In this document: positions 37,701 to 63,670 of the stretch, piece after piece
Layout: the number at the start of each line of letters is the position of its first letter
Numbering within the stretch: position 1 is the first letter of the stretch
Source of the DNA: Apostichopus japonicus
Taxonomy: Eukaryota > Echinodermata > Holothuroidea > Aspidochirotida > Stichopodidae
DNA: 64,000 nt
NCBI RefSeq assembly: GCF_037975245.1
Contig: NC_092579.1
Coordinates: forward strand, 7,191,001 to 7,255,000
Direction of reading: 5' to 3'
Translations under genes and position numbers: made by a program
Notes under the pieces: generated by a model
The model's database searches: none
Seen by the model: the letters and a program-made list of their open reading frames with translations, nothing else
Told to the model about the DNA's origin: nothing

Positions 37701-38074
37701 CATAGGAGTAGGAGGCGGGGGGGCTGGGGGTTGCAGCCCCGACCAAAACTTTTTGTGAAAATTCGGGCAATATGCTGAGAATTTTTCGGGCACCTACTGA
37801 AAGAAAAATTATTTGCAATGTGTTTTTCAATGGTTAAACTGATATTATTATGATCATTAATATTGTAACGACTTGCCTAATAATTATAACCAATATAGAG
37901 GGGTAATAACACGGCAAATGATTGTATGTTATTGGCATGCGATGTTATAACCGATGCATGCCCATATGATATGCACATTAATATGCTGAACGCGCGCGGA
38001 AGGCGCGAAAAATTTGGGTTATATTTTTCGGGCAAGTCGAGACCCCCAAATCAAATTGGGCTCCTACGCCTATG
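37701..38074. mobile_element. hAT-type MITE (family B), intact 374-bp reference copy
   Basis: The ends are CATAGGAGTAGGAG on the left and, in complement, CATAGGCGTAGGAG on the right. The flanking 8-mers TACATGCA (37693-37700) and TACATACA (38075-38082) match 7 of 8. The interior includes GAAAATTCGGGCAATATGCT, CATGCGATG, CCATATGATATG, ACATTAATATGCTGAACG, a GCGCGCGGAAGGCGCG hairpin and GGTTATATTTTTCGGGCAAG. This unbroken copy shows which sequence should be contiguous in the split copy at 44047 and 62546. Confidence 0.85.
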
Positions 38075-42691: not shown

Positions 42692-42774
42692 ATTTGTTCC
42701 GCAATCTACTTAGAATAAAAGGAAAAGAAAGGAAATACGTCAAGTCAACTTACATACAATGCTACCGTGACCGG

Positions 42775-43055
42775 ACAAATACCCCCCAGACAAATACCCC
42801 CCGGACGATTACCCCCCAGACAATAACCCCCCGGACGATTACCACCCGGACAGATACCCCCGGGACAAATACCATCCCGGACAATTACCCCCCAGGACAA
42901 CTACCACCCGGACAGAAACCCCCCGGACAATTACCCCCGAGGACAAAAACCCCCCGGACAAGTACCCACCCGGACAACTACCCCCTCGGACGAATACCCC
43001 CTAGACAATTACCCCCCCCCCCCGGATGAATAACCCCCGGACGAATATACCCCTG
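42775..43055. repeat. Degenerate C-rich minisatellite, about 14-16 bp unit
   Basis: About 18 imperfect copies of a unit like CCCGGACAAATACCCC, with ACAAATAC, ACGATTACC and ACAATTACC variants. It starts about 85 bp upstream of the K2P start codon on the opposite side, so it may lie in that gene's 5' untranslated intron or promoter. Confidence 0.9.
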
Positions 43056-43375
43056 GACATATGCCGTTAACTTTAGGAGACGGATACAGCGACGGATACG
43101 CCCGTCTTTTTTCGAGTTTAGTTTCCCGCGGGCCTCAGCATATACACTGGTCCCTCGGGCAACTCCGAGAGCATATTTACAATTGGGTCAGGGTGACGGT
43201 TAAACTGGCACCACTAGGTCGTCGTGTGCCCTGGCCCTTATAACCTCCTCCCGACTTTTAAAAAGATTCGAGCTTTTCATATATAAGCCCCCAAAACTCC
43301 TGGATAGGGTTTGACAATGGACCGAGGCCCGGGGGTTGGGTTGGGAATTGCTCACTGCTGGTAGTAACCAGGGGC

Positions 43376-43505
43376 GTATCCAGGATTTTCTAACCGGGGG
43401 GGCGCGAATTACTATCTAAGCGGAGCGCCACCATCGGTTGGCGCGGAGCGTAAAAGAAAATTTCAGGTTTTGATACCCCCTAGATCACCGGAAATGGCAC
43501 TTCTC
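43376..43505. mobile_element. Fragment of the CGGAGCGCCACC repeat family
   Basis: It starts GGGGCGTATCCAGGATTTTC, then a poly-G, then ACTATCTAAGCGGAGCGCCA, CCATCGGTTGGCGCGGAGCG and ATCACCGGAAATGGCACTTC. The core is shared, inverted, with the right part of the 5715-7066 element (about 6905-7014) and directly with 62690-62810. Only one end is recognisable. Confidence 0.6.
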
Positions 43506-44046
43506 GGGCTTGAAAATGAGCAACCAGATGTACACTTTTGCCTGAGAACCAAGTATTTCCCAATATTTTTTTTTCCATCCATAACCTTTTTGAAGATTGT
43601 AACCAGTCACACATCATGTTCGACCTCATTGCATGTCCTGTTGATCATTGCTTTTGTAGGTGATTCTACGTCACGGCCCACAATATCCGAAAGCCCCACT
43701 TTTCAAAGTTTAAAGCCCATTATTTGTTCAGAATTTGAAAATTCACATTTCTCGTGAAGAAAATCATATCAAAACATATACATAATGTTGCACAAAATTC
43801 AATCTATGGATAACCAATATAGAAAAACCTCCTTCAACCCCTAACAGACCGGTCAAAATTGCTACGAGTAGAGGGAAGTATGATGAAGAATGTTGGTCAG
43901 GAAGTTTTCGAAAATTCAGACACAGTTAATTTATTGGTGTACAAATATTACAACCTCTTATAACGGCAATTATAAAACTTCGTTGAAGGAAATGAAAAAT
44001 AGCAGATATTTCCGATATCAGATATTTCGAAACCGAACACTACACA

Positions 44047-44373
44047 CATAGGCGTAGGAGGCGGGGCTGCAGCCCCCCCCCCCCAACCAAACTTGTTCCC
44101 CTGAAAATTCGGGCAATATGCTGAGAATAAATGAATAGTTTAAAAATGATCTCCTTGGTAATTAAAATAAAGTTCTAGGCTTGGCAGACTAATTCGCCAT
44201 TACTACTGTAAAAGAGAGTTTTGACATAATTGGACCTGCATGCTTTTTCTCCATCTACATAAGACATTTCGTTGTTTACATTAGCATCCTGCGGATGACT
44301 GCGCAACTTTCACGGACCGTACGGTACACGATGCCATGCGATGTAATGACCTATGCTTGCTTATATGATATTG
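44047..44373. mobile_element. Left half of a split hAT-type MITE (family B)
   Basis: It begins CATAGGCGTAGGAGGCGG with the 8-mer ACTACACA just outside (44039-44046). The interior follows the intact copy at 37701: GAAAATTCGGGCAATATGCT, CATGCGATGTAATGACC, ATATGATATTG. It stops at the point equivalent to about 37970 in the reference copy, where a (GTAT)n run begins. The missing right half, starting in register, is at 62439-62546. Confidence 0.85.
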
Positions 44374-44601
44374 TATGTATGTATGTATGTATGTATGTGT
44401 GTATGTATGTATGTATGTATGTATGTATGTATGTATGTATGTATGTATGTATGTATGTATGTATGTATGTATGTATGTATGTATGTATGTATGTATGTAT
44501 GTATGTATGTATGTATGTATGTATGTATGTATGTATGTATGTATGTATGTATGTATGTATGTATGTATGTATGTATGTATGTATGTATGTATGTATGTAT
44601 G
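44374..44601. repeat. (GTAT)n microsatellite, left part of a split SINE tail
   Basis: About 57 copies of GTAT with a single GTGT variant near 44397. It starts right after the TATTG shared with the other MITE half. No SINE body adjoins it here; the body with the rest of the tail is at 62047-62438. I read it as the distal tail of that minus-strand SINE. Confidence 0.9.
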
Positions 44602-44606
44602 ATTAA

Positions 44607-44935
44607 GTGCCTTATGGAGACAAATTTGAGCATACAACTATCCTTATGGCGACACAAATCCTTGTGGAGACAAAAAGTAGGTCTCCACAAGAAATAGTTT
44701 TCCCGCTAACTTCTCAGACCACCACAAACCTACTGGAGACGTTTGAGAAAGGTCACCATAGGGATACCCTTGTGGAGACCATCATAGGTATGCAGACGAT
44801 GTATACAAACAAAAACAAATGTAATGTAAGTGCTAGGGCGCCCTCATTTCTTAAGCCTCCACAAGGCTGTTTAAAATACTGCACAGTGAACTGTGAGTTG
44901 GAGTCTCCACATGGTCAGTTATACCGCCCTTGAAT
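44607..44935. repeat. Left subterminal TGGAGAC motifs
   Basis: TATGGAGACAAA, TGTGGAGACAAAA, GGTCTCCACAAG, CTGGAGACG, TGTGGAGACC and AGTCTCCACATGG occur within about 300 bp, in mixed orientation. The same GGAGAC/GTCTCC core, often with CCACAAG or CCAGAAG beside it, dominates the opposite end of the 17.4-kb unit. Such clustered subterminal motifs are typical transposase or recombinase binding arrays in other DNA transposons; binding here is inference. Confidence 0.55.
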
Positions 44936-45885
44936 ACTGACCACAAAATGAGGAAGAGAGAAATGGTCAAGATAGCTATCACCAAAGTGAGTACAATGTT
45001 TAAGCCTTTTTTTGTACCATTTAAAGTTGCACCATTTTTGAAAGTTTAGTTTCGGAATTTTATATCATTCTGCAAGGCCGAACAACATGACTATACAGTC
45101 AGTTATATTAAGTAGTAAGTACCAGTTCTGCGAAGGCTACAACAGTTCCACAGGATCTTGGATTGAAAAAAAAAGACCTAGCCTACTGTATTCTTCCCTT
45201 GATTAAACCAGGAACAACAGCATTGCATTGTTATTTATGCCCAAAGCTATATTTGCATGTCGAGGGTGGGAGGAGGGGGGGGGGGGGGTCTTTCATGTGT
45301 AACATTATTCCACTTATTTCTGTGCTAACTACATGCATTGTAATTTGTATGTGTCTCGATTGGCTTTGGACATAATCTGATTCGCTCTTTAACAACTGTT
45401 CAGGTTAGATAAATTTAAAATATCAAAGAGTGTTTGACAAAGCCATGTCAACACATTAATAACTTCAATGGAATTGAGCAGAAATAAAGACTCAATACTA
45501 GACCATTCTTTTTTATGTTTTTTTATTAACTGCAGATCACAAGTTTCAATTATTTTTTGAATTTGTATCAAGTCATTTTCTTTTTCTTTTCAGCCTTTCT
45601 TGCCCCATCCTACAGTATTAGCTGCATTCTCCAGAGGGATTACCCTGTCAAAGTAAACCAAAATACTTATTCGTGAAAGATTGCAAAAGATGCATTAAAC
45701 AACTTGTATTACAAACATTGTTGGGAATAACTTAGCATGTTAATGAGGAGGAGAACTTCGGTTAAAGCAAGTCGCATGTTAAAACAGACACTATGAGGCT
45801 GTTTGAACATTACAATCAGATATTTGATAGTGTGTGTTAACATACAGTGGCCAAATACTGTATTCATTACTTCCTACTTACACAG

Positions 45886-48021
45886 TTAGGGTACATGTAG
45901 AATGCTCCAAACCAAATACCCAAGACTAAAAAGAAAAGTGAAGAGGAGAGTTCCAAGTACAACAGCGATAATTGCAACATGTTTTGCATCTCTTGGTTCT
46001 GTGACTTGCACCAACGAAATTGTGCGCCTCACTGGATTCACTGGATTCATTCTTGCTGTTGGAATGGACTAAGGAGATAAAGTATATAACAAAATGCTGA
46101 AGTTCATTACTCGTTGGGAAAAGAGATTTTTTTACCAGGGGCTAATGTGAGTTTGTACATATGAACATTCCAGATTGAAAATTGTGTATCCGACATTCAA
46201 GAGTTTGCTTTCTGTATAAGAGAGTAACTTCCCATTGGACTTGTGAATGCAAACTGTGGGAAAAGAAGATGGTAGGGTGACAGATGCAACATGTTAGGGG
46301 CTTGCTGTTTCAGCACTTATTGATGAACTGTTAGAACACATCAGATGATTAGTGATTTGGTAAGCAAGCTATCCAATAACTGAAAATATTTAATTCCTTT
46401 TGTTAATAACATGTGAAAACTATATGAAGGGCACATAGCAGTATAGCACAATTATTGTGAAACTTTGTTCAGGCTTGCAACCACTTGGTTTTGGAATTTG
46501 GGTTTGGAGGTAAATGTTTTACTTCAGTGATCAGTTCTTGTGTGTGTGTGTGTGTGTGTGTGCAGTTTAAGGATGGTTTACCGGTTATCCGAGTAAAATA
46601 TTTGACTGGTTATAATTTGATGTAAATATGAAACTGCACATATACCTACTGCATGTACAGGCCTTTGAGCCACTACGGTTTGTGAGCATTTAGCTTTGTG
46701 AGATGCACACATGATTGTTTATACTTCTTTGCCTCAAATGCAGTTCAGTATTAATTACATAGGTATTTTTATTTAACATGGGATTTAAGAATGCAAACAA
46801 TTTGTAATATTTGGTATAATTAAGTGGCATTATTGTGAAACAAGATAAATAAGATTACAAGTTAGGTAGAGTTTCTCTTTAAATCTTCAAATATAAAACA
46901 CTACCATTACTATTGTTATGGGTTGTGCCTTTAGAAGACATTCTATGTAGTCTTAGAAGAGGTAGGGTGAGAGGGAAGATAACGGTCATGAGCTGAAATA
47001 AAGAATTATCACACATATTTTGCACCTTCCTTGTAAAGTTCTTTCTTCTTTTATTAAAACCTGTGGTCCTACACTCTGCAGCTGTACACTAAGGCCTATA
47101 TAGTCTTCTATGCCTTTCAGTAATCTTGCACATAACCAGAAAATGATAGGCCAGCCACTATACCTAAATGTTATTATTTGGGCAAAACAGCTAGTTCACT
47201 TGGCGCATATAGTATTACTCAACAAAAATATCTCACTAAACCTACCTTCCAAGTCTTTAAAATGTGTACTATCTTAATTGATGAGCCAAATGTAGCATGA
47301 GAGCCGTCTGGAGACATGTATTTGGCCTGTTTAGTGCACAAGCCTCCACAAGACTGGTCTGTATAGAGTGTTGAATACACTACTGTATATGTACAGCACA
47401 CAGGTCATTATAATTACTCTGAGTGGCAAAGTGCATGGGGAATCCCCTTTTTTGTGGACAATAATCTGAGAGGGCAATTAAGGGCAGTGGATATGTGAGA
47501 ATAACACTTTTTTCTTTAATGCTTTCTTTTGATGGACTGCTGATATTCAAGAGAAAGAAAAAACAATTGCAACAAACAAGCACTTAGCATATAGTGAAAA
47601 GTTAAGCCTTTATCAGTTTTGCAATTTGCCCCAAATGTGGTACCACCTTTGCAAGAGTTATCCTGCAACTTTACCTCAATTGTTAGCCATGCCAATCCCA
47701 AAATTTCCAATTTTTAAAAGTGAAGGTTACTCCTTGAGTGTCTCCATTTGGCTTGTAAACATATGGGCAACATCTGGCAGATGTAGCCAATAAATTACTT
47801 TTATTCCATTTAATTTCCTCCTCAGTCATATATGGCTCTCCCTGTCCTCTGGCCACAGTTTCAATCTTGTCATACCATGTAGGCCTGTGCATGGACAATC
47901 TGAACCCCCCCCCCCCCACCCTTAAACAAAGAAAGGAAACATCATTGAAATCCTTACATATGAGTTTGAATTGTTCGATGGATTCAGCTGCCAATGACTC
48001 AAGCTCAGCTTTGACTGTGAT
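45886..48021 (-). CDS. Candidate single-pass membrane protein, at least three exons, incomplete
   Basis: Three minus-strand segments join with compatible phases: 48021-47958 (ITVKAELESLAAESIEQFKL plus I, phase-1 donor GTAAGG), 47358-47246 (SCGGLCTKQAKYMSPDGSHA then FGSSIKIVHILKTWK, phase-0 donor GTAGGT) and 46068-45886. The last encodes a basic segment (NPVNPVRRTISLVQVTEPRD) followed by one strong transmembrane helix (HVAIIAVVLGTLLFTFLFSL then GYLVW), ending in TAA at 45888-45886. A GTAAGT donor about 6 bases after the stop suggests an intron in the 3' untranslated region. The 5' start is not found. It is divergent to the SET/recombinase gene, about 1.1 kb away, inside the candidate 17.4-kb element. 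The family is not recognised. Confidence 0.35.
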
Positions 48022-49152
48022 CTATACTGTAAGTTGTTGACTTGTCAAGAAGAAGCAGAATGCACAGATAAATACATTGCTTTCGTCTTTTGATGATATG
48101 AATATTTTTTTCAATCTGACATACTAATGAGATGCAGCAGTACCTGCATGGTGATAGCAAGTCTTCAAAAATTACATATAGGTATATATTTTATTATGGT
48201 CCCTGTTGACCCTTACAATCTTTGACCAGCTTTAAACGTAAAAGGCTCATGGGGCTCAAAGTAGTACACCCGTACACACCAAGAATCAAATTCTACCAAG
48301 CCTCACTTCTTGAGATTTATTTTTTGCAAGGTTATTTGACCCAAAAAGCACCTGTCCAAAAAGCTAGCAACGCGCTTTGAGGCTACGTGACCATATTTGA
48401 ATGGGGATGATAACTGTACTCGTACCGACACTGTTATTAGTTTACTGGCACCGACAGCGATTTCAACAAAATGTGTTCATCAAATTCGAGTGATTGATGC
48501 AGATCGTACTGTTCTGTACATCGCATTAAAAATCCACACGTGTATAATAGATGTAATGTGCTAGTACATAGACTGGTATGCTGCAACGTTACACCGAAGA
48601 GGGAACTCCAGCAGGTCTCCAATAGGAAAACCCATAGCAATTCCCCCGCGCTCTTCCTTATGTAGCGACGGAATGTCACAACAGTTACTTCCCATACCCC
48701 CGTTGACTTACTGTTAGGCCATGTTTTTCTTCACCGATAACAGTTCTTTCCTCATTTCATTACACTTTGTCTTAAAATCTTAAGAAAGGTGGAATAAATC
48801 TCTTCATATCTCAGTGGTTTTCTAGTTTCTATTTAGTATGGCACAATCGGACTTTGGGGGTTAAAAATGTAGAGCTACGCAATTTTTGAAAACCAAAATT
48901 CACGCGTAAAACACATTACTGAAAGTTCAATTGTGTCTCTATAACACTGGCCCTCCTCTTTCTCTGTATTGAATATGCATTACAAATGAATGACAGATTC
49001 TTTACATTTAAAACTATTGTGATTGGTTAAAATTCTCAATCGGACCTAGAGGTAACAAATGAGAGTTATCGTTAGAAAATATCGACCTTCGTGCCCAACC
49101 TCGAAAGACGCTATTGTAAACCATTGATCATTACTATCCTAGCTAGGTAACA

Positions 49153-52100
49153 ATGAAGACTCGTGGAAAGAGGGTGAGTAAATACATCAATCTGTAATAT
49201 TTTCAATTTAGCTGTCCATTGCTTAGGCATATGAGCCAGGGAGTTGAGGGGGACTGCAGCCTCTTCCTCCTTGGAGTTGGCCAAAGCAAATTTCTCTGGC
49301 AAATTACTGGAAAAGCCAGGAGAAATCTCAATAGTAATAGGTGGGTGATGATTTCATTTGTGCTTTGTTTCTTCCCTACTGTTTGGCTGTTATGTAGAAT
49401 TTTTTAGGTTATATTTATATACAAGTGGGTACAATGCAAGAAGAGAATTACCTCTTCGGGTTGTCATAAACCAAATTTTTCACCCATTTGAATGTGAAGC
49501 TTTCGGTGTAGGTCAAAGGGCATAGGGATCAACAGGAGTCAACATGTGAAAACGTTTGTTAATTTAATATTCCATGAATGTATCAAGGAGGAATTCTCAT
49601 GTTTAGTTGCTGAGGTACTAAATTGAGTTGAATCATCTGTATGGGTTATGGTTTACCCCTCTCATGTATTGACCCTGAATTATCTTACAGTGGTAGTATA
49701 TTACATAGTTTGCCAATTAGTTAAATTTCACAATGCGTCTTGTGCATTCACCTTGCTGAATGTGAGAAAATTGAAGTATGCAAAAAGAGAAATATGCAAG
49801 AATTAAATATAAATTTGACCAGATTGCTAATTTTGAATCCCTTGTACATTAAATTAGCTTTAGGGCCTTTCTGTATACTTGCACCTCTACACTGTGTTCT
49901 GCATAAGCACAAACAACTTGCAATAAAGTAAACTGGCATGGTGGCTGGAGCCCATTGCGGTGCACCCTAGCTACTGATTGTACATGCAGTGCAATGCACA
50001 TTGTCTCTCTTGACACTGACATACTGTTACATGTATCCATATTGTTGAACACATGTTAGAGCTTTAATTTGCAGTATTCAGTAATTGTGTTGTCACTGTG
50101 TTAACTTTTGATATCTTTTAATCTTCCCAAAGGATACAGATGTACCCAACTATGAGCAGGATCACCCTGGTCTTGAGAAGAAGTTCATCAGTGAAAGGAT
50201 TGGTGAGTGCTTTACTAGTAATAACATACATGCATGGCTAAGCAACAAGATATTTTTAGTGGTATTAGAGAAATTATATATTGGAGAGTTGTGTTTGCTG
50301 TTATTCATTTTTAAAGGAAATTGTTCATAGTTTTTCATTTATTTTTTTTAAGATATGGAGTGTTTGCAACACAATCAATTGAGAATGGGGAGTTCTTGCT
50401 GCAGTACAAGGGGGAGAGAATTACAACAGAAGAGGCAGAGGAAAGGGAGGTTGATTACATAAATCGTCAGCTGAGGCACTGCTATCAGTATTTTTATTCT
50501 GATAGAGGCAAGACATTATGGTAAGTTAAATTTCTTTTCGAAGTTTCCTGACCATGTCAGCCAGGCTGATCTGTCAGTGAAAAGTCAATTAGTCTGCTAG
50601 CCTAACATCATTTGTCAGTTGGATTAAAACTACAATTCTGTTTGAGTTAGGTGTCAAATAAAGCTCACTTGATGTAGGTTGGTGCAAGTCAGTTTCCAAT
50701 TTGTACTTCATACTGAAATATGCCAGAAGTCAAACAGAAGTCTCTAGAACTTTTGCTAATGGATCAGTTACCTTACTTCATCCTTTGAACTATGTTGTTG
50801 GCAAATTTTGGGTCGAATTGTGAAAACCTTGTAAACACATTATCTCAAGAGGAAAACCTTGGGCATAACTCATATGTTAGTGTGTTGAAGTACCATATAA
50901 AGGACAAGGAGCCTATTAATTTTGGTAGAGGTCAAAGGTCATTTGGGGTCACCGACGGTCAAATTGTGAAAACCTTGTAAAAACAATATCTCAAGAAGGA
51001 AAGCTTGAGCATACCTCTTGTTTAATGTGTAGGAGTACCATATTGAGGACAAGAAGCCTATTGATTTTGGTTGAGGTCAAAGGTTATTTGTGGTCAAATT
51101 GTGGAAAACCTTGTAAACATGATACCTCAAGAAGGAAAGCTTAGACAGACCTCATACTGTACTTAGTGTGTAGAAGTCACACATTTAATACAAGAAGCCT
51201 AGTGTTTTTTAAGGAGGTCAAAGGTCATTTGGGCTCACCAGGGGTCAACTTGTGAAACCTTGTAAATGAGACATCTCAAGAAGGGAATCATGGGCAGACT
51301 TCATATTTGGTTTGTAGAAGTACCACATAAAGTACAATAAAGCCAATTTGATTTTGATGGAGGTCAATATCATTTGGGGTCACCAGGGGTCAAATTGTGG
51401 AAACCTTGTAAAATGTTGCAAGAAAGGAACCTTGGACAGATCTCATATTTTGTTATTAGATATGCCATATCAAATTTAATTAACTTCATTCCCCTCTTAC
51501 CTGCCTCTCTTCACTAAGGCACCTTCCTTAACATAACATCACAAGGGTAGCTTTGGACATGTCTATCACATATTTGGTATGTAATTGTACCACATTGAGT
51601 ACAAGAAGCCTAATGTTGGCGGAGGTCAGTGGTTGAGTTCATGAGGGGTGAAATTGTGAAAAGTAGGACATTAAATTTAGTTGCTGATGTATCACTCTTA
51701 GTACAAGAAGCCTGTTGTTGAGGTCAATGGTCATTTCAGGACAGCCCGTGCCTTTGTGAATTTATTGTTTGTCACAACACAATGCGTTGCACTGTAATAC
51801 AAAGATCAAGTATGTTGTACACCCTCAGTATACATTACGTCAGATTCATGAAGAAAAGTGCTCATATTACATCATTGGTAGCACAATGCATTTTTGCATT
51901 CTGGTTAAGGATTAGTGTTATTTCACTGTGAGTTATTAATGATCATGATTTTGGAATAATCATGTCCTCCATGATAAGGTACTTGTTGGTAGTAATTGTA
52001 ATGATACAGGTATTTATAAGTAGAGTGTTAATATTATATTAAAAGTAAGGTATTTATCAGTAGTAGAGTACTCACCATTCCGCAAGATCGCGCTCATGCT

Positions 52101-55100
52101 TTGTAGCGCCTGTAAATTCCAACTGAGGAACACAATTAGTAGCTCCTGTCAAGAGCTATCAAGGAAATTATCTACAGCCATAATACAGTGTGTAGTGTGC
52201 TAAAGCCACTCACTTCAGTACTACATAGGGGTGCTACTGAAGCAATACATGAACTTCTTTAAAACTCAAAAGAAAATCTTTGTCAGTCAAGCTTTAACTC
52301 ATCACATTGCAAACAAGGTGAGATTTGTAATAACATGAATCTCTTACTTGTTGACTTTGTAGTTTTTGAAAGGAATTTGGAAGGGATATACGGGAAGGGT
52401 TTTGCTTATTTTAATTTTAATTAATTGGTCAGGGGATAAGGCTAGGAGAAGCTTACTGTTGGGTTTGGGCAAGAGTAATGGTAGTGACAGGTCTATAGGC
52501 ATTGTGGGAGTTACCACCACAAAGAATGAGATTTTGAAGGAAGATATTCATGGGAGACTTTTCTCTTCATTTTGTACATGGAGAAAGTTTAATTCATTGG
52601 GCATAAAAGGTTGCCTTCCTTTAATGATTGCAATCATTTAATGAAATACACAATAATTGTACATGTTTTTTTTTAATTTTATATCTTTCAGCATTGATGC
52701 AACCCATGTGAAAAAGTCACTTGGAAAATTTGTCAATGATGAAAAACCCCAAAAAGCAAACTGCAGAATGAAGAAGATAATTCACAATGAAGAAGTTATT
52801 CTTTGCTTGTTTTCAACAAAGGAAATTAATATTGGTGACGAGATACGGTATGACTATGGTTTAAAAAATCTTCCTTGGCGAACAGACAAGGATGGCAAGA
52901 GTACCCAACAGGAAGTTCAGGACAAAACTGAAGACAAACTGGATATAGAGTGTTGTGAACAATTACCTAGTATGATGGTGCTCAACACAACTCTTCACAG
53001 GGAAGATGATGAGGAAATTGTTGAGGGATCTTCCAATGAGATGTTGAGAGATGTTGGTTGCAGTAAAGAAGATCAAGCTTGTGAACAGAATAATAATGCA
53101 AAAGACCATTCACAGCAAGAAATACTGACCACTGCTAAAGACCCTAAAGAAGAAACTGGTGACAAACCTGATAAAGATGGTTGGGAACAGTTAAACAACA
53201 TGGCGATGCATAATACAGCACTTCAGAGAGAGGATGATGAGGAAATGGTTGAGGTATCTTCCATTGAAGATAGTGGTGACAAAATTTCAGATCAAGCTTG
53301 TAAGCAGAATACTAATGCAAAAGACCACTCACAGCAAGAAATACTGACCACTGCTAAAGACCCTAAAGAAGAAACTGGTGACAAACCTGATAAAGATGGT
53401 TGGGAACAGTTAACCAACATGGCGATGCATAATACAGCACTTCAGAGAGAGGATGATGAGGAAATGGTTGAGGTATCTTTCATTGAAGATAGTGGTGACA
53501 AAATTTCAGATCAAGCTTGTAAGCAGAATACTAATGCAAAAGGCCACTCACAGCAAGAAATACTGACCACTGCTAAAGACCCTAAAGAAGAAACTGGTGA
53601 CAAACCTGATAAAGATGGTTGGGAACAGTTAACCAACATGGCGATGCATAATACAGCACTTCAGAGAGAGGATGATGAGGAAATGGTTGAGGTATCTTCC
53701 ATTGAAGATAGTGGTGACAAAATTTCAGATCAAGCTTGTAAGCAGAATACTAATGCAGAGGACCACTCACAGCAAGAAAAATTGACCGCTGCTGGATACA
53801 CAAAAGAAGAAACTGGTAACAAACCTGATAAAGAGGATAGGGAACAATTACCTAACATGGCGATGCATAATACAGCACGTCGGAGAGAAGATGATGAGGA
53901 AATGGTTGAGGGATCTCCCATTGAAGAATGTGGTGACTGGAAAGCAAATAAAGCTATTGAACAGAAACCTAATGCAGAGGACAGCTCACAGCAAAATCAG
54001 ACATTAGACACTAGGTCTGATCTGGAGAAGGAACTTGCTAAGATAAGATCCATTCTTAGAGATACACACGTTTTTCCTATTATGGCAGCAGAGGTAGACT
54101 GTGAAACAGCCCTATTAAGTGATATTGAAAGTACTCATGAATATGAAGTTGCTGATGACATGAGTGATGCTTCTGAACATGAAGCCGATTCAGATTATCA
54201 TCCAGACCCTGGTGATTCAGAAAAGAACAGTGATCTTGAAAAGGATGATGACACATGTGACTTACCCAAAGATGTCCCTGGGACTTCAGGGACATGTTAC
54301 AATAAAGTGATTGATGCTAAAATGGATGCAGGCTACTGTGAAGATAATTCATCAGGTTGTGAACGGGAGCAGTTGGATGATGAAGAACAGGAGGAAGAAG
54401 AAGTCCATGTCAAATGTGCTCAAAGGAAACAAACAGAGAAAGGTTCCAAACGAGTCTACGATAAAAGAAATGCATGCTTGTTTTGTGGGAAGTTGTTAAA
54501 AGTTGTTATCGGTCGACACTATCTAAGTCAACATAAAGATGAAGTTGCTGTTGCACAGATAATGGCACTGCCTGTGGGATCAAGGGAGCGGAAAGTTAAA
54601 CTAGACCTTCTGCGAAACAAAGGAAATTTCTTTCACAATGAAGAAGTGATACAAACACAGACTGGAGAGATAATTTTGATGCGAAGACCATCAACTGGAG
54701 CCTACTTTGACTTGGATGATTACGGCCCCTGTCCACAGTGTTTGGGATATGTTAGTAAGGATGATTTGTGGAGGCATGTGCGGTATAGATGCATTGCCAA
54801 AGAATCAGAATCCAAGGGAGAAAGTAAAAAGAGATCACGAGTTCGCATGGAAAGTGACATCCTTATGAAACGGTACAACGGAGCAAGTGACAAATTGAAA
54901 AGAATGGTCTTATCTTCAATGAAGAGAGATGAGCTGTTTGATGTTCTTAGCAATGACATACTCATACTTGAATATGGAAACCAAGTGCTTCGCAACCAGC
55001 AAACCAGAAAGCATATTGTGTCCCAAAAAATGAGAGCACTTGCTAGTGTCTTACTAGAACTAAGGAAATCTGATCCTAATGGTGGCCAGAACATCAGTGA

Positions 55101-58100
55101 TTTCATAAAACCATCCAAGTTTGATATGGTAGTTGAGGCAGTGGAAAAAAGATGTGCCATAGTTGAAAATGATAATGGTGGAAATTGTCAGTATAAGTTT
55201 CCATCATTCGCTATAAAGTCAGGGCATGACTTGGTCTGGATCACAAGAATCAAGCGTAGCCAGGCAATAAGGCAAGGTGATGCTAAAGCTGAAGAAGAAG
55301 CAAACATATTTGCAACTTCATCAAGCAGAATGGCATGTGAAAGTTGCTTCAGCAGCTGCTTCCACATTGAATGTAAGAAAGTGTGAAAAAGTAGTCAGCC
55401 TCCCAAGTGCTTCTGATCTGAAGAAAGTTTCTGAGCACACACGATCTCAGATTAAAAGTTTGACCAGTAAACTGATGAGTGCTAAACCTGAGTTCAGAGA
55501 TTATCGTCTATTGCAGAAAATGACCCTAGCAAGACTGATCGTCTTTAACAAACGCAGACCAGCTGAAATGGCAAAATTGCCTGTAGCTTCCATCTTAAAC
55601 CGGCCGCAGTGGGAGAAATGTCAGATTGATGAATTAGCTCATAATCTAAATGCTTTGGAGAAAGAGCTGTCTAAGCGGTACCAGCTAGTTAAAATTGTGG
55701 GAAAACGTGGCCGTCCAGTCGCAGTTATTATTCCACCAGAATGTTCTGAATCTCTTAAGTTGATCATTGATCAAAGGGAATCATTTGGCATACCAGCCGG
55801 CAACCCATATGTGTTTGCTAGGTCTACTTCAGCATCATTTCTTGATGGAGGAGAGTGCCTTTCTGAAGTAATTACTGGTCTGGATTTAGAAGCACCAGAG
55901 ACCATAAAGAGCACCAAAATGAGACAGTATGCTGCAACTGTCTCACAAGTCTTAAGTCTTGGTAGTCAGGAGGTAGAGTGGCTGGCAAGCCATCTTGGTC
56001 ATGATGTGGCAATTCACAAGCAATATTATAGACTCCAGGAGTCAACAGTTGAACTGTGCAAAGTTTCCAAATTGCTCCTTGCCATGGATCGAGGCAAAGT
56101 TTCTAACTTAAGAGGAAAGACGTTGGATGAAATCAGTGTTGATGGTAAGAATTTATTTAAGTAGTTCAATTAGCAGGAGTAAGCTACTTATGACAAGAAA
56201 TGTAAAGAACATTTAACATCTTCTCTAATAAAATGACTTAATATGCCAATGTTACTTAACTTAGGTTATGTTCACAAACTGGAGTTATTCAGCATCCATG
56301 ACTCTAGGTCAGATCAGTGCAAGCATATTAGTACCTTGACCATTTCAGTAAAAAAAGGCTGGTTTTGGCTGGCATTCTACCTAATTTCTCTAAAGGTTGC
56401 CCCAAGATTGCTTTGGCTACATTTTGTCATCAATTATAAGACAAATTTTTTGAACTTCACAATCCAACAGACATTCCTGTGTTTGAAGATGAACAAATTG
56501 AAGAATCTGTTGCAATGCATCAGCTTGAGGGTGGTGAGTCTCTTTTGTATTATGTTGCATGTCTTATCTAGACATCTCATATTAAAGGGTAGATATATCA
56601 GAGAAACAAGGTAAATTATTTCTTGGGTATACTTTCTTGTAACACAAAGCTTACTATATAGGGCTGAAAAGGAATTGTCATGTTGGTAAACATGGCAAAT
56701 GAAAGTACCTGTAGAATTGAACGGACATAGGCATCATATTAAACAGATGTTCAAAGGTATTGCCTGTAATTAAGGAAAAACAACAAACCAACTCTTACTT
56801 AACTCTCCAGCCCCCATTTGTTCTCACGTCTTTCAGGGAACATTGGATGATAGATAACATGTTCCGAATAAGTAGAATTGTTATTACTTTTAGTTGCGTA
56901 AACTTGTGACCATTGCTTATCAACTAATCTACACATTTGGCATTTGTCTGTCTTATAGATAACCATTCAGATGAGGAGGGGAAGCAGAGCCATCATGATC
57001 CACCTGTACTGGAAAACACTTCCTCTGGTGAGTTTTTTGTGGAGATAATGCAAGTGATATCTGAGACTTATGTTGTATTCCAGCCCTGCCATTTAAGATA
57101 AAAAACATAAGTATGTTAACCTTGATCTATATACCCCTGGATGAGTCCATATCTTTGTTTCTTTCATGGGATTCAATTGCAGCCAAACTCACATACTTGT
57201 CAAATTGACTCCCTAGGTATGTTCCACCTTCGGCCAATACCTTTATCTTGAATTAGTGCCAAATCAATCCTTACCAAAATAGGTTTTATTGATACAGTTT
57301 TTAATATTTTAAAAACATTTACAGTGCAGTTCAGTTCAAAAGGGACTACAGAAAGATGAGTGTGATTTATTACCTTAAGCTGCTTTAGTGTGCTAGGCCA
57401 GGATCCTAACAAAGGATTGTGTTAGCTTGCACTCACAACAATACCGTAGAAAACTGATTAATAAATTGCTATTTACAGTCATCAAGGAATTTATGTGGCC
57501 TCACAAAAATCTGACAGGAGGACATTGATACAGAGCAAGCATTTCTTGCAGTCCATTGTCCCGATAAGACCACATATTTTGATGTTCAAATTAGGTGAAA
57601 GTATTCTTAGAATCAATGTTTAGGAAGATATTTTTTAGTTATTAACTTATTGCCCAGACTTAAACCGTTCCAAGAAATGAAAAATGTTAATACCATGTAG
57701 ACATGTAACATTGATGGACTTATCAAACGTAATATGGCACCCTTCTGCCTTTTATTTATAAGTTTCTCTGCTATAAGCTAGAGATCATGATTGAAAGAGT
57801 GAAAGTTGGTTTGAAGTTTAGCCTTGTATTGTATTGGCACCCATTGACAATTACTGCAAGGCAATTGTACAATATTGGCCATTTTTGTTGAGTAACACCG
57901 AATGTTGGTATCTTCTGTCTAAAGTTGCCTCTCATTTGCAAGGAATCACTTAGCTATTTGATTTCCTGGTTTATTTGGTATCATATTGCACTTTTTGTCT
58001 ATGATCTTATATAAAAGCCAAGGTATCAAAGACACAGGGTAAATTATTAAAAGCAATTTGCCTGGAATACAAAGAAGCTACTGTATCAGGCTTCATGAAG

Positions 58101-59278
58101 GAAATGTCAAGTAGATGCAATTTGGTAGAAATGAGGGAACATAGGCTTGATATTTAGCAGATTTTCTGAGGCATTGTCTAAAGGGAAAAACCACAAACCA
58201 ATTTGACATCTGTCCTGTTACTCAAGTCTTCATTCCCCCACATGTTACCTGATTGAAATAAAATTGCTAGTACTTTTGCCATGCAAACTTGTGACCATTG
58301 TTTTTTATTAACCTAATCATTTGGCATTTGTCTGTCTTACAGATAACAATTCAGATGATGAAATGGGAATACAGGGCTCTCAAGATCAATTGGTACTGGA
58401 AAACACCTCATCTGGTGAGTTTTTGGTAGAGATAATGCAAGTTATATCTGAGAAAGATGAGTGTAATTTAAGACCCTAAGCTGGTTAATTGAATGTCCAT
58501 TTTTTGGATCCCAGTTGTGAGGTACCCTTCTCAATGCAAGTCTTTGTGCACTACATGCCAACATGCAGTCACTCCAACTTCGATAGTGTCAAGGACTTTC
58601 AAATCCCCGCTGGATTCCATCGCCTATATGAGTATTATCCAGCCAAGGGTTCCTGTTTGGAACCAACTGGAGTCCAAGATGGCCCCCACTTCTGCCCTGA
58701 CTGACAATTCACATCTTAGCTAGGCTTTTGCAACATCATTGTGCTTGTTTTGTTGTGAATTTGTAATTTTGTGATTGAAGGCATACTTAAAAGAGTTACA
58801 AATTCCAGTGTGCATCAGGTATATCTAGTCAAACTTTTTATGTCATACATACCGACAAGGAAGTGTTGTCAAAGAGAAGCCCTTGTTATAGCATTTTAGA
58901 AGAACCTATAATTACTCGTTAGTGGATGTGTATATATATTTATCATTTAAAAAGCACTAGAGGGAAGGAAGCAAGTTCACAGAAAATGTTTTTTATTCAA
59001 TAAAGAGTTTAACCAGGTTACATAAACTTTGCGTTTTACTATTACCTCCTGCAGGTAAACGATTTTTCCGAAAGCAAAAGAAAAAAGTCCCTTGGACAGC
59101 TGAGGAAAAAAAGACCATCTTCAAGCATTTTCAAAAGAACATAAAGCAAGGAAAAAACCCTGGCAGAGATGCCTGCAGGTCTGCTGTTGAAAAATTTCCA
59201 TGTCTCGCCAGAAGGACTCCTGACAACGTAAAAGACTATGTCCGGAACCAAATTGTAAGATTGGCAAAAGGAATTTAA
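49153..59278 (+). CDS. SET-domain / tyrosine-recombinase fusion gene, eight exons, frameshifted
   Basis: Predicted exons: 49153-49173, 50133-50206, 50353-50520, 52692-56144, 56471-56533, 56959-57027, 58343-58414, 59055-59278. Exons 2-4 encode a KMT5A-like SET domain (YGVFATQSIENGEFLLQYKG; CIDATHVKKSLGKFVND; INIGDEIRYDYG), but the NHS motif reads N-D. Five acidic 73-residue repeats follow, then CxxC/H-type motifs (CLFCGK...HYLSQH at 54475; CPQC...RHVRYRC at 54730). Next is a tyrosine-recombinase-like domain: Arg of NKRRPAEM (55553), KRGRP hairpin, Arg of KMRQYAAT (55922), LGHD His (56000), and Tyr of KQYYRL (56024-56029). The last exon is a Myb-like basic segment (VPWTAEEKKTIFKHF). Between about 55295 and 55330 the frame shifts +1 within one exon. 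Exon 2 needs the weaker donor GA|GTGC at 50207 to stay in frame; the stronger GTGAGT at 50203 breaks it. The ATG has an in-frame upstream TAG. Whole-protein architecture matches uncharacterised fish and invertebrate proteins I recall; I infer a transposon-borne or domesticated recombinase. Confidence 0.8.
50800..51680. repeat. Intronic minisatellite, about 145-bp unit, about six degenerate copies
   Basis: GGTCAAATTGTGAAAACCTT followed by GTAAA recurs near 50815, 50958, 51095, 51245, 51388 and, in decayed form, 51648. In between are TCAAGAAGGAAAGCTTGGGC, TAGAAGTACCA, ACAAGAAGCCTA and GAGGTCAAAGGTCATTTGGG. It lies in intron 3 of the SET/recombinase gene. Confidence 0.85.
52885..53979 (+). repeat. 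Coding tandem repeat, 219 bp (73 residues) x five
   Basis: Unit boundaries at GACCA(T/C)TCACAGCAAGAA fall at 53104, 53323, 53542 and 53761, with the next at 53980, exactly 219 bp apart. Units 53104, 53323 and 53542 are nearly identical; the first (from about 52885) and last (53761-53979) are diverged. Each encodes HSQQEILTTAKDPKEETGDK, GWEQL.NMAMHNTALQREDD and EEMVEVSSIEDSGDK-type acidic sequence. The exact period keeps the frame, and the homogeneity of the central units points to recent amplification. It forms a flexible acidic spacer between the SET and zinc-finger/recombinase parts. Confidence 0.95.
56959..58414 (+). repeat. Duplicated exon pair with flanking introns
   Basis: Exon 56959-57027 (DNHSDEEGKQ...PPVLENTSS) and exon 58343-58414 (DNNSDDEMGIQ...QLVLENTSS) are 1384 bp apart. 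Their flanking introns are also similar: TTTGGCATTTGTCTGTCTTA before each, and GTGAGTTTTT, GAGATAATGCAAGT, ATATCTGAGA after each. Both exons are phase 1-1, so the duplication preserves the reading frame. It is a tandem genomic duplication of exon plus intron. Confidence 0.9.
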
Positions 59279-59499
59279 GTGAGTTCCTGCTGCATATGGT
59301 CAATAAGATGAACATTATTTTTGCAGGCAAAAACAGGTATTGCATGTTAGGCAAGTGAAAAAGCTAAATGATTCAATATAAATCAGCCTTTTGTGTGAAA
59401 CAATTCAATATTTTTGATTGCATATGTTTATTGGCCTTGCTTCCTTCTTAAGGTTACTGCTTAATCTTTTTCAGCTGAAGAGCTCAGTTTGTAAGGCAA

Positions 59500-60310
59500 T
59501 ATTCATGTCTTTCTTGCATTCTTAATCTGTTCCAAAAGAACATTAGGGAAGGCAGAGTCCCTGACAGATATCACTCCTGCTCTCCCTACAATACAAAGAA
59601 TATGTTTAGAGGTAAGATGTTGTAAGGTAAGATGGTAAGATTACAACGAAAGGAATATAGGGTTTCAAGCACATTAACGGGAGAACAGTTTCCGACTGAA
59701 AACCCTGCTGTATCAGGTCCATAATGCAAAAAAAAAGGAATGATTTTATCCAAATGACCTGTTTGTGTTAAATGTAAATGTGTTTCTGATAGAAATGTTT
59801 GTTTAGTGTGGTTATTAGGAAATGAGGTCAAAAAGAGATACAAATCTGTATCATAATTTTTAAGAATTTCTTTAGATTGAGGAGAGCTTTTACAGTATTT
59901 TGGGAAGAACATATAAGTGAGGAGATTTCCTGGTGGATAGGCCTACTACATCAGGTCAGTCAGATGTATTTTTACAAGCAAAGAACAGTGTGAGTTATGC
60001 AAAAGAAAAGTTAAAGGGTTTCATTTTAATGAATTTTTTGTGTTTAACAGTTCTTTACTTCCGATAGCAAATGTCTGTTAGTTCTTTTTAGGAACTGAGA
60101 TTTTAGTCAGAAACCAAACTTCAAAATCAGTTTAGCTTAAGTGCTTCATTTATAAGAAAATTTAAAAACTTCTTTGAGAGGCTATTTAACAGTATATGTT
60201 GACAAGAACAAAGTTATTTTGAGAGTAAAGGACAGGCAATATCAGTTATCAAAAAAGAGACATGATCTTCTTAAAATTACCTTTTTGTGTTCAATATTTC
60301 TATGTTTTAA
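59500..60310. repeat. Decayed tandem duplicates of the last exon and its 3' flank
   Basis: About 59530-59660 resembles the last exon (CCAAAAGAACATTAGGGAAG, CCCTGACAGAGATATC-like, AAGATTACAACGAAAGGAAT), and 59690-59780, 59950-60060 and 60220-60310 resemble its 3' flank (TGCTGTATCAGGTC, TTTACAAGCAAAGAACAG, GTTATGCAAAAGAAAAG, TTTTTGTGTTTAACA). Frames are broken. Successive tandem duplications appear to have extended the 3' end, most now pseudo-exonic. A possible polyadenylation signal AATAAA lies at about 60541. Confidence 0.5.
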
Positions 60311-61473
60311 AGCAGGTGTTTGTTGAAACTACTTAGTAGATAGTGAGATCATCAAAAAGTTCCAAGGTTTAAACTCATTTACTCATAAACTCAATAAACT
60401 CAGCTAAAAAGCTTCATTTCTGGGTAATTTTGAAATCATACTTTGTTTGTATTTTGGTTGTGTTATCAAGTTAAACAAATGGCTTTCCCTTTTAATGTTA
60501 CTATTGACAGTATTACAAGGCTTAGTTTCATCAAGGAGAATAAATAACAGAATTCATTTATGTTCCAATTCGTACAGCTAATGATCTTTGAGAGTCAGAG
60601 GGTGGGTGAAAAAGATTTGAGATGTTAACCACGTGTAAAAAAATCTGAAGAAGAAAATATTCCAGATGCCAAGTACCTGATAATTTCGGACATCGGAAAT
60701 TATGTTGGTTCATATTTGCTGTACTAGTGCATGTGCTCCTTCTTGTTATATTCAGTGAAAGGTTAGCAACAGTGAAGATATTTTAGTTTTGATGCAACTA
60801 ATACACCAATGCAAACATGATGGAAATCATGTTCCATTATCAAGACCAAAGTACATATTTGCATTCTATTTTCTTATCTCTAATAGAGTAAAAAAGAAAA
60901 TGGTGTCCACTGTCATTTTACTTCTGTACATTGATTCAGCCCATGTTGTGTTGTCAGTATTACTGTTATTATGTTACTAGTTGTAAGTTCAAACTTGCTT
61001 AAAATTTTTAGAAATAATTTGAACATTTGTTAACATTAATTTAACATGTTGTAATGTTTACTTGTTTTAATTAAATGGTGTTCATATAATGTCTGTCCCT
61101 TTTCATATTTGTATGCATTTCTGTTGAAGGACCTGAGAGAATATGCCGGATGATCAGGGCAATAAACTGTAGTTAAAAACTGAACTTTGTTGTTTGAGAT
61201 AAACTAAAACTTCTATGAAAGCTTCACTTGGCTTGTCTACTGGAGAAGTGGGAATGAATACATGTAAAAAAAGTAATGAAAAGTAATAACTTTTCTAAAA
61301 ATTTAAGCATGGCCAACTGTATTTTTCTTGATAATTCCCTTGTGAAATTTAAAATGCAGTCATTACAAGCTTGCAAGGGGCAAGATGAAATAATAAGAAC
61401 AGTACTGGACTTAAACCAAGCAGGTTGGGTATTACAGCATTTGGAAGGTTTGGTTTTTGAGAATGTATAAAGT

Positions 61474-61970
61474 GGTCTCCAGAGGGATGATTCATAAAGA
61501 TGGTACTGAACTTCGGTCCAATACCAACTTATGTAAACTTGTCTCCAGAAGGAAGGATGATTCATTAGGATGGTACTGATCTGCAGTCCAATACCAACTT
61601 ATGTAAACTTGTCTCCAGAAGGAAGGATGATTCATAAGGATGGTACTGAATTGCAGTCCAATACCAACTTATGTAAACTAGTCTCCAGAAGGAAGGATGA
61701 TTCATTAGGATGGTACTGAACTGCAGTCCAATACCAACTTATGTAAACTAGTCTCCAGAAGGAATGGTGATTCATAAGGATGGTACTGAACTGCAGTCCA
61801 ATACCAACTTATGTAAACTAGTCTCCAGAAGGAATGGTGATTCATAAGGATGGTACTGAACTGCAGTCCAATACCAACTTATGTAAACTAGTCTCCAGAA
61901 GGAATGGTGATTCATAAGGATGGTACTGAACTGCAGTCCAATACCAACTTGTGTAATCAAGTCTCCAAAG
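61474..61970. repeat. 70-bp tandem array, about seven copies
   Basis: GTCTCCAGAAGGAA starts units at 61541, 61611, 61681, 61751, 61821 and 61891, exactly 70 bp apart. A first, slightly shorter unit starts at 61474, and GTCTCCAAAGG at 61961 begins a partial one. Each unit contains GATTCATAAGGATGGTACTG, TGCAGTCCAATACCAACTT and ATGTAAACTAG. It lies just inside the right end of the 17.4-kb candidate element and carries the same GTCTCC core as the left end. Confidence 0.97.
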
Positions 61971-62046
61971 GGTATGTTTGATAAGGATGATGGGAGTCTC
62001 ACAAGTTGTCTCCACAGGGAAAGTCTCCATTAGGCCCACAACATGA

Positions 62047-62125
62047 GTATGTATGTATGCGTGTATGTATGTATGTATGTATGTATGTGTGTATGTATGT
62101 ATGTATGTATGTATGTATGTATGTA

Positions 62126-62174
<49 letters not shown>

Positions 62175-62213
62175 ATGTATGTATGTATGTGTGTATGTAT
62201 GTATGTATATGTG
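62047..62213. repeat. (GTAT)n/(GT)n microsatellite, right part of the split SINE tail
   Basis: GTAT repeats with GTGT variants and a (GT)n core at 62131-62158, running directly into the 3' end of the minus-strand SINE at 62214. It is more heterogeneous than the left part at 44374-44601. Confidence 0.95.
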
Positions 62214-62438
62214 ATCTTCCCGCAAGCAGGAACTCGCGAAAGAAGCCATGGAGGCTTATAGACTCCCAAGCTGACCGAAGCCAATCTCTCGGCACACATC
62301 CATTTAACGTCCATGTCGGGAAGTTGTTATTGAACAACACCCTTGCCAGACGACACACCTTGCTGTCGGCGGGGAATCGAACCGGGGATCTCATGACTGG
62401 GAGACGCCGGCGTTAACCACTAGGCTATACACTCCGCC
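62214..62438 (-). mobile_element. tRNA-derived SINE (copy 3), minus orientation
   Basis: Read on the minus strand it begins GGCGGAGTGTATAGCCTAGT, followed by GGTTAACGCC (box A) and GGTTCGATTCC (a near-perfect B box at about 62375-62385). The body contains TTGGCTTCGGTCAGCTTGGG, TATAAGCCTCCATGG, TTCTTTCGCGAGTTCC and GCTTGCGGGAAGATC, and then ATAC repeats. The 5' end abuts TATTG (62439-62443), the same pentamer found at 44369-44373 before the distal tail. That fits a target-site duplication from insertion into the MITE. Confidence 0.85.
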
Positions 62439-62546
62439 TATTGACATTAACATGTTGAACGCGCGCTGTGCGCGCGAAAAATTTTGGTTATATTTTTCGG
62501 GCAAGTCGTTACAGCCCCCAAATCCAATTGGGCTCCTACGCCTTTG
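62439..62546. mobile_element. Right half of the split hAT-type MITE (family B)
   Basis: It begins TATTGACATTAACATG, then TTGAACGCGCG, GCGCGCGAAAAATT, GGTTATATTTTTCGGGCAAG, CCAATTGGGCTCCTACGCC and TTTG, matching the right end of the intact copy at 37701-38074. The 8-mer ACTACACA follows at 62547-62554 and equals the 8-mer left of the other half (44039-44046). Joined at TATTG, the two halves align with the intact copy without gap across the junction. Confidence 0.85.
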
Positions 62547-62649
62547 ACTACACACATAGACAGTTTTGAGGCTGTTCATTTTTGAACATGCATTTTCATG
62601 CTCACTGATATTATGTGATGTCTGCTCTTTGCTTTACAAATTCGAACAG

Positions 62650-62815
62650 GCGTGTAGCGAGTAATTTGCCAACGGAAGGGCGAAGCCTGTAGGCAAACTA
62701 TCTAAGCGAAGCGCCACCATGGTTTGGCGCGAAGCGTACAAGAAAATTTTGGCCGAAAAAGCCTCCCAGATCGCTGGAAATGACACTTCCCAGGCCTTGT
62801 AAGTTGCATTTAAGC
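62650..62815. mobile_element. Fragment of the CGGAGCGCCACC repeat family
   Basis: AACTATCTAAGCGAAGCGCC, ACCATGGTTTGGCGCGAAGC, GTACAAGAAAATTTTGG, then AGATCGCTGGAAATGACACT and TCCCAGGCCTTGTAAGTTGC. It is related to 43421-43505 and, inverted, to 6895-7014. The ends are unclear. Confidence 0.6.
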
Positions 62816-63363
62816 ATTGTCTATTTTTAAATTACTAGCGATATCATAGAGAAAATTTGCTCGGGGGGGGCGGTCGCCCCTTCCCGAAATGCGTCATGTT
62901 CCCCGACGACTCGGTCGAGTTCAAGACCAGCCACAGTTGGTTCCATTGCACAATTGAACAATTGTTCAAGGCGTCCATACACACACACGCGTTATGCTAG
63001 ACCATATATAGTATATATATATAGATACATTAGTGAGAGAGGAAAAATGGAAACGTCAACTAGAGCACCAATGGTGCAGAAGCTCATACCTTTTCGAGCT
63101 TAAAAATGTAGGGCCCACAAAACTTTATGGCCCACCAAATTTCCGGCCATTTTTCAGATTCCACCAATTTTGGGCGCATGAGGGATACCCCCCCCCCCCC
63201 CCTCCGTTAGCAGAATACTGGCCACACCACTGGCTATAATTCCTATTTCCCCCCTTTAAATCCTGTTTTACCCACTCTCTCAAACAATACCACTGACATA
63301 CCCTATTAAACTTTCTCCCCTCTACCTGAGCAGACTTGAAGTATGGAACGCGAAAAGGTCAAC

Positions 63364-63670
63364 CGTATTTCGTTGCCTAAACTAAGTTTGTTTCGTTGCC
63401 TAAACTAAGTTTGTTGCTGTCTAAACTAAAGCTGTTGCTGCTAGTTTACCATGTTGCTGTTGTTCGTTGATGTCTAAACTTACGTTGATGTCTAAAGTCA
63501 CGTTGACGACTAAACGCGCCTTAATGTCTAAACTCACGTTGATTTATAAACCTTACGGTTGATGTCTAAACTCACGTTGATGTCTAAAACTTTCGTTGCT
63601 AATTTAACTGCGGTTGATGTCTAAACTCACGTTGATGTCTACACTTTCGTTGCTATCTAAAGTTCCGTTG
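63364..63670. repeat. Degenerate minisatellite, about 18-20 bp unit
   Basis: About 15 variants of GTTGATGTCTAAACTCAC, including GTTGCCTAAACTAAGTTT, GTTGACGACTAAACGCG and GTTGCTATCTAAAGTTCC. No coding meaning. Confidence 0.85.

Follow-up and report, generated by a model that had tools for sequence, protein, structure and literature searches.

The window analyzed here is a 64,000-nucleotide stretch of the Apostichopus japonicus genome (C19:7191001-7255000; the genome examined comprises 671.6 Mb in 35 contigs). It contains a 17.4-kb unit that lies in the (GTAT)n tail of a short interspersed nuclear element (SINE), which itself sits within a miniature inverted-repeat transposable element (MITE) held by a larger amplified repeat (Table 1). 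The unit carries a gene that joins a SET domain to a tyrosine recombinase (YR), and is termed the SET-YR unit herein. From its sequence, and with a probability of roughly 85%, we interpret it as a low-copy, recently mobile YR DNA transposon that is site specific for (GTAT)n microsatellites.

Table 1. Positions of the SET-YR unit, its parts, and the surrounding repeats in the window.
Feature	Position	Strand	Remarks
Outer amplified repeat (holds the MITE), left part	42766..44046	.	Aligns over ~42766-44046 in five of seven fetched paralogues (96-99%); in two, alignment starts at ~43365
MITE target duplication (8 bp), left	44039..44046	+	ACTACACA
MITE left half	44047..44373	+	Ends at TATTG
(GTAT)n, left portion of SINE tail	44374..44601	+	Integration target
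SET-YR unit (putative transposon), window copy, 17.4 kb	44602..62046	+	Eight two-ended genomic copies; 99.5% to C4 copy, full length
Left subterminal TGGAGAC motifs	44615..44779	+	n = 4
Coding exon, start of SET domain	50133..50202	+	tblastn of P0032, AG/GT sites
Coding exon, SET domain	50353..50520	+	100% to P0032 over 55 aa
Large exon: end of SET, acidic coding repeats, Cys/His region, YR	52692..56144	+	Frameshift near 55305 in window copy
In-frame tandem repeat of 219 bp	53070..53937	+	Between SET and YR
Tyrosine recombinase domain	55307..56144	+	R84, K133, T203, R206, H232, Y241 of the 285-aa piece 55307-56161
Coding exon	56471..56533	+	tblastn, AG/GT
Coding exon	56959..57027	+	tblastn, AG/GT
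Coding exon resembling 56959-57027	58343..58414	+	tblastn, AG/GT
Last exon, Myb-like C-terminal domain	59055..59278	+	47% to Amphiura P0033 over 77 aa; Myb Pfam match below cut-off
Right subterminal array of GTCTCCA motifs	61475..62029	+	10 motifs, inverted relative to the four left TGGAGAC
70-bp tandem repeat in right subterminal array	61485..61989		
(GTAT)n, right portion of SINE tail	62047..62213	+	
SINE body	62214..62438	-	
MITE right half	62439..62546	+	
MITE target duplication (8 bp), right	62547..62554	+	ACTACACA
Outer amplified repeat, right part	62547..63636	.	To at least 63636; 0.5-1.2 kb at 92-99% in seven of seven paralogues

Copies, ends, and target repeat

The first 399 bases of the unit had eight genomic matches, and its last 647 bases gave 14 match rows corresponding to nine places. 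Eight copies are two-ended, with 17.1 to 19.0 kb between terminal motifs, and the ninth place (on C15) is a right-end fragment that kept approximately the last 2.3 kb. The window and C4 copies were compared over 17,465 alignment columns (99.5% identity). Some copies have internal insertions and deletions, C17c most of all. Extra internal insertions of about 1 kb or larger occurred in three copies (C6:17015159-17033726, C17:12554716-12573687, and C17:22416181-22433282), the last of which additionally lacks several internal stretches. Beyond the subterminal motifs in Table 1, two oppositely oriented GTCTCCA motifs occur close to the left end, and three motifs are found in the interior.

Every end found adjoins (GTAT)n (eight of eight left, nine of nine right), and relative to the element GTAT is always on one strand. 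Seven of the eight left ends read ...GTATGT TTTCAC ATTTA GTGCC, the window copy deviating with ...ATG ATTAA GTGCC, and the right ends read ...CCCACAACATGA GTATGTATG.

Two of the eight two-ended copies, those in the window and on C16, share one outer repeat, which would suit a unit that is not self-mobile and travels as a passenger of segmental duplications or of that repeat. However, the other six have unrelated flanks beyond the same exact boundaries (compared on at least one side each, where the fetched flank passes the microsatellite). In a tree built from 7.3 kb of right-half sequence, the window copy grouped with C4 and C17a (bootstrap 100), and the C16 copy with C6 (96). Because the window and C16 copies are not closest relatives in this tree, they are best read as independent insertions, which apparently entered the same outer repeat separately; gene conversion is an alternative account of their placement. 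We regard a passenger origin as extremely unlikely.

The association with (GTAT)n might instead reflect no site preference at all, the microsatellite flanks having arisen after insertion or microsatellite recombination having moved the unit. Long microsatellites do recombine and slip, and more (GTAT)n/(ACAT)n arrays are present elsewhere in the window. Against this, all left and right ends lie in one repeat and one orientation, the SINE carries its microsatellite tail in empty paralogues that lack the insert (see below), and a related second family adjoins a different simple repeat at four of four right ends, which together make this alternative improbable.

The dispersed copies have constant ends, and we observed no open reading frame (ORF) of the length expected for a reverse transcriptase or a DDE transposase. 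Elements of both types were rejected on the lengths of the 30 ORFs of ≥80 aa and on Pfam scans of 18 of these 30, a search that did not extend to every frame.

Empty sites and the nested locus

The left MITE half was compared with the genome, in which 40 matches were scored out of 2426 first-look candidates, the window and the C16 copy included. All 40 stop at base 327, the last base, and 39 begin at base 1. In seven of seven other fetched loci (L002 to L008), the MITE-SINE-MITE structure is uninterrupted, running from the left half through (GTAT)n and SINE to the right half within 0.69 to 1.34 kb, with identities of 98.7 to 99.6% for the SINE and 98.1% for the right MITE half. These loci are paralogous empty sites for the 17.4-kb unit.

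The MITE fits the hAT type, with an 8-bp target site duplication (TSD) on both sides and short terminal inverted repeats (termini CATAGGCGTAGGAG and, reverse-complemented, CAAAGGCGTAGGAG), and TATTG is present at both SINE edges. The outer flanks of the window likewise align to all seven paralogues at 92 to 99% (left, 0.7 to 1.3 kb; right, 0.5 to 1.2 kb, some right-flank alignments ending where the fetched locus ends). Since these flanks are shared by all seven, the TSD and TATTG were inherited from one founder; MITE and SINE evidently nested once, inside a larger repeat that afterwards spread. Coming from a single founder, the TSD and TATTG cannot date the window locus, and the TSD is not a mark private to it.

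The landmarks of the split MITE in the first-pass annotation are nevertheless real (the ACTACACA duplicates, both MITE halves, the (GTAT)n blocks, the minus-strand SINE, and the TATTG edges), and the uninterrupted loci support the order it proposed, from MITE to SINE to 17.4-kb unit. Its three levels of nesting become four with the larger amplified repeat: unit in SINE tail, SINE in MITE, and MITE in that repeat. The intact MITE at 37701-38074, with which the split copy had been compared, aligned to left-half loci at 75 to 76% over 85 bp and 84 to 85% over 103 bp, with no alignment in the middle; it is related, but as a distant subfamily, and L002 to L008 are better comparators. That the unit came as one insertion holds as well, given a mobile element with eight two-ended copies. 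Because it is repeated elsewhere with the same boundaries, the locus is explained neither by wrong joining of two microsatellites in the assembly nor by independent truncation of the two MITE halves, the two escapes that had been considered. The (GTAT)n microsatellite is the target of the element and not an accidental join, and in the window the element would have entered the ATAC tail of a SINE within a hAT-like MITE within an older amplified repeat. A perfect (ACAT)88 array at 26439-26791 of the window is an unoccupied potential target.

The SET-YR gene and a possible mode of movement

Where several genes had been proposed for the unit, a single recombinase gene is recognizable, with at least seven predicted coding exons. 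It encodes, in order, a KMT5A-like SET domain, the 219-bp coding repeats, a Cys/His region, the YR, and a Myb-like tail. Exons were placed by tblastn of the host proteins P0032 (1366 aa; the best protein match) and P0001 and of Amphiura P0033, and their edges show AG/GT. P0032 covers the first five exons in Table 1, P0001 added 58343-58414, and P0001 with P0033 added 59055-59278; no exon in this mapping corresponded to the first residues of P0032. Duplicated exons with flanking intron (56925-57066 and 58309-58453) are 80 to 89% alike, and both are used in the annotated P0001.

The SET domain is complete in P0032 (Pfam E = 1.6e-15), and the window ORF alone matched barely under the cut-off (22.3 of 22.4 bits). 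When the SET part of the C17b large exon was compared with solved chains, 14 of 14 matches were KMT5A/SET8 (E from ~1e-4 to 1e-3). The NH pair of the KMT5A motif is ND in the element, as it is in the Amphiura and fish relatives. Across the 18 ORFs scanned, SET was the only family near or above the Pfam cut-off, and the 5-kb left part of the unit is incompletely resolved.

Large frames are open in six of the eight copies (1022 to 1263 aa). Outside the repeats, these six are open to the same stop over a constant 716 aa, whereas total open-frame length varies. The frame is broken in the window copy, by its frameshift, and in C17c, where it closes early. In all 15 pairs of the six open copies the per-site replacement rate is below the silent rate (pN/pS 0.00 to 0.63, from 1 to 25 differences per pair and with no significance test), while raw replacements outnumber silent changes in pairs with C17b and some others. 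Low pN/pS, together with gene models in the host annotation, could also indicate a host multigene family whose surrounding DNA was duplicated along with it. Yet the copies are units of 17 to 19 kb with exact ends in microsatellites, two of them have a broken large frame, and six differ by <1% in the right half despite lying on different chromosomes or far apart; a host family is thus very unlikely.

PDB sequence searches gave weak, unrelated matches (one with the YR piece and four with the alignment), so a fold search was needed, in which the YR model matched Xer recombinases. The unit encodes a catalytic domain of the YR fold in which R, K, R, H, and Y are conserved, as expected of a YR DNA transposon. 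We assume the customary catalytic roles for these residues, by which the His-II position is Thr in the element; in 31 of 33 members, T occupies the site three residues ahead of the second R. Six of the 33 members matched Pfam Phage_integrase with E values no higher than 1 (best, 8e-4); the P0045 match is below the cut-off and spans just 47 residues, which lie upstream of the active-site Tyr region. DUF3504 was absent among the Pfam matches listed (25 of 38 families in one of the scans).

We propose that the YR would excise the element as a circle, the joined ends carrying a GTATGT-like core, and that the circle would recombine through this core with the same sequence in a microsatellite. Recombination between the core and an identical repeat would leave no visible duplication besides the repeat itself. 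Conservative site-specific recombination of a circle is consistent with the presence of a YR, the constant orientation, and the blending of the ends into the target repeat, and the element probably moves as a circle. The protein of the element plausibly binds the inverted subterminal motifs and, as a guess, the SET domain might mark chromatin at the element or its target.

Relatives and comparison with known systems

A protein search of the host genome returned 142 YR matches from 148 scored candidates. By hand count, 38 of these are on C17 (37.2 of 671.6 Mb), 32 of them within 9.3 Mb (~15.6 to 24.9 Mb); many are partial or contain stops, and single copies may be split over several rows. This YR graveyard may mark a region of low recombination.

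The second family has four copies that are ~40% identical to the unit in the YR, with more than 15 kb shared between its C15 and C16 copies. At all four right ends, with minor variation, TTACATG runs into TATG and (TG)n, and the flanks beyond them differ between copies. In the C15 copy, (TG)n forms the border of a different dispersed repeat (the flank at C21:8121100 appears similar by eye), so (TG)n and that repeat are so far indistinguishable as the target of this family. Over the 5.5 kb searched for its left end, the C15 and C16 copies remained similar and the end was not reached. The family has a 258-bp repeat (L049:3040-3818) that resembles the 219-bp repeat of the unit. A 2.7-kb repeat (L052:199-2934; 3252 first-look candidates) starts at (TG)n adjoining a related YR element.

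Proteins with both SET and YR similarity were found in Apostichopus, Amphiura, Patiria, Acropora, and fishes, and YR relatives without a listed SET in other cnidarians, molluscs, and an isopod. In a YR tree of 23 sequences, several inner nodes of which are poorly supported, echinoderms fell in more than one clade, the window sequence with Amphiura and another Apostichopus protein near Diadema and Patiria. The tree suggests several old lineages and is compatible with either vertical or horizontal spread.

Among known systems, Cryptons are described as having a YR with an R-H-R-Y tetrad and short terminal repeats (PMC3212892). Like the CryptonA elements of animals, the unit is best read as a YR-encoding DNA transposon, and for Cryptons a circular intermediate has been proposed, with short terminal direct repeats as the likely recombination substrate (PMC3212892). 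Where Cryptons have these repeats, both unit ends adjoin GTAT repeats that are themselves the target. The unit differs in having T for H in the R-H-R-Y order, in its length of 17.4 kb, in a SET-YR gene with at least seven coding exons, and in landing in microsatellites; the terms "SET domain" and "microsatellite" do not occur in the main text of PMC3212892.

Starships, as described, have a DUF3435 captain as their leading 5' gene and resemble the unit in being large (from 15 kb), YR-mobilized, and selective in their sites (PMC12134995). In the unit, the SET-YR gene is the first recognized gene, but its first located exon lies ~5.5 kb inside. However, Starships are fungal, whereas the unit has an animal host and no recognized cargo gene, and DUF3435 (PF11917) had no match among the Pfam matches of the unit and its family, for which even the general YR profile matches weakly. 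DIRS, Ngaro, and PAT retroelements also use a tyrosine recombinase, but the unit has, besides SET-YR, no ORF of reverse-transcriptase length. With T for H in the Crypton tetrad and no DUF3435 among the Pfam matches, it is filed solely as a YR DNA transposon; it appears to work like Cryptons or Starships by analogy, and is assigned to neither.

An endogenous virus-like element, for example of the nimavirus type, would be another source of a YR that enters repeats: endogenous nimaviruses are described as having YRs with a C2H2 region that are tied to insertion into telomere repeats (PMC10871703). These are large viral genomes in crustaceans, however, while the unit has no recognized viral gene and a single recognized gene in 17 kb, with SET as the sole Pfam family near or above cut-off in the 18 ORFs scanned; when viral contigs were scanned for one peptide pattern, 14 stretches came up, none of them a confirmed relative. 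We consider a viral origin highly improbable.

No description of a SET-YR transposon was found in the titles and abstract openings listed by searches of the open-licence PMC literature, and a name may already exist elsewhere, as in Repbase. Tentatively, and at somewhat less than even odds, SET-YR elements could form an unrecognized superfamily of large YR transposons spread across animals, each family homing to a simple-sequence repeat of its own and using the fused KMT5A-like methyltransferase to act on chromatin at the integration site or on the element itself.

Large YR elements with site preferences are already known from fungi (Starships) and as endogenous viruses of crustaceans. The window adds an example from an animal, in which the ends are exact, the target is clear, and both empty sites and open-frame copies are present. 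Here a histone-methyltransferase-like domain is joined to a recombinase, a pairing found in echinoderm, coral, and fish proteins that could explain uncharacterized SET proteins in animal annotations, and how a recombinase reads a tetranucleotide repeat as its attachment site becomes testable.
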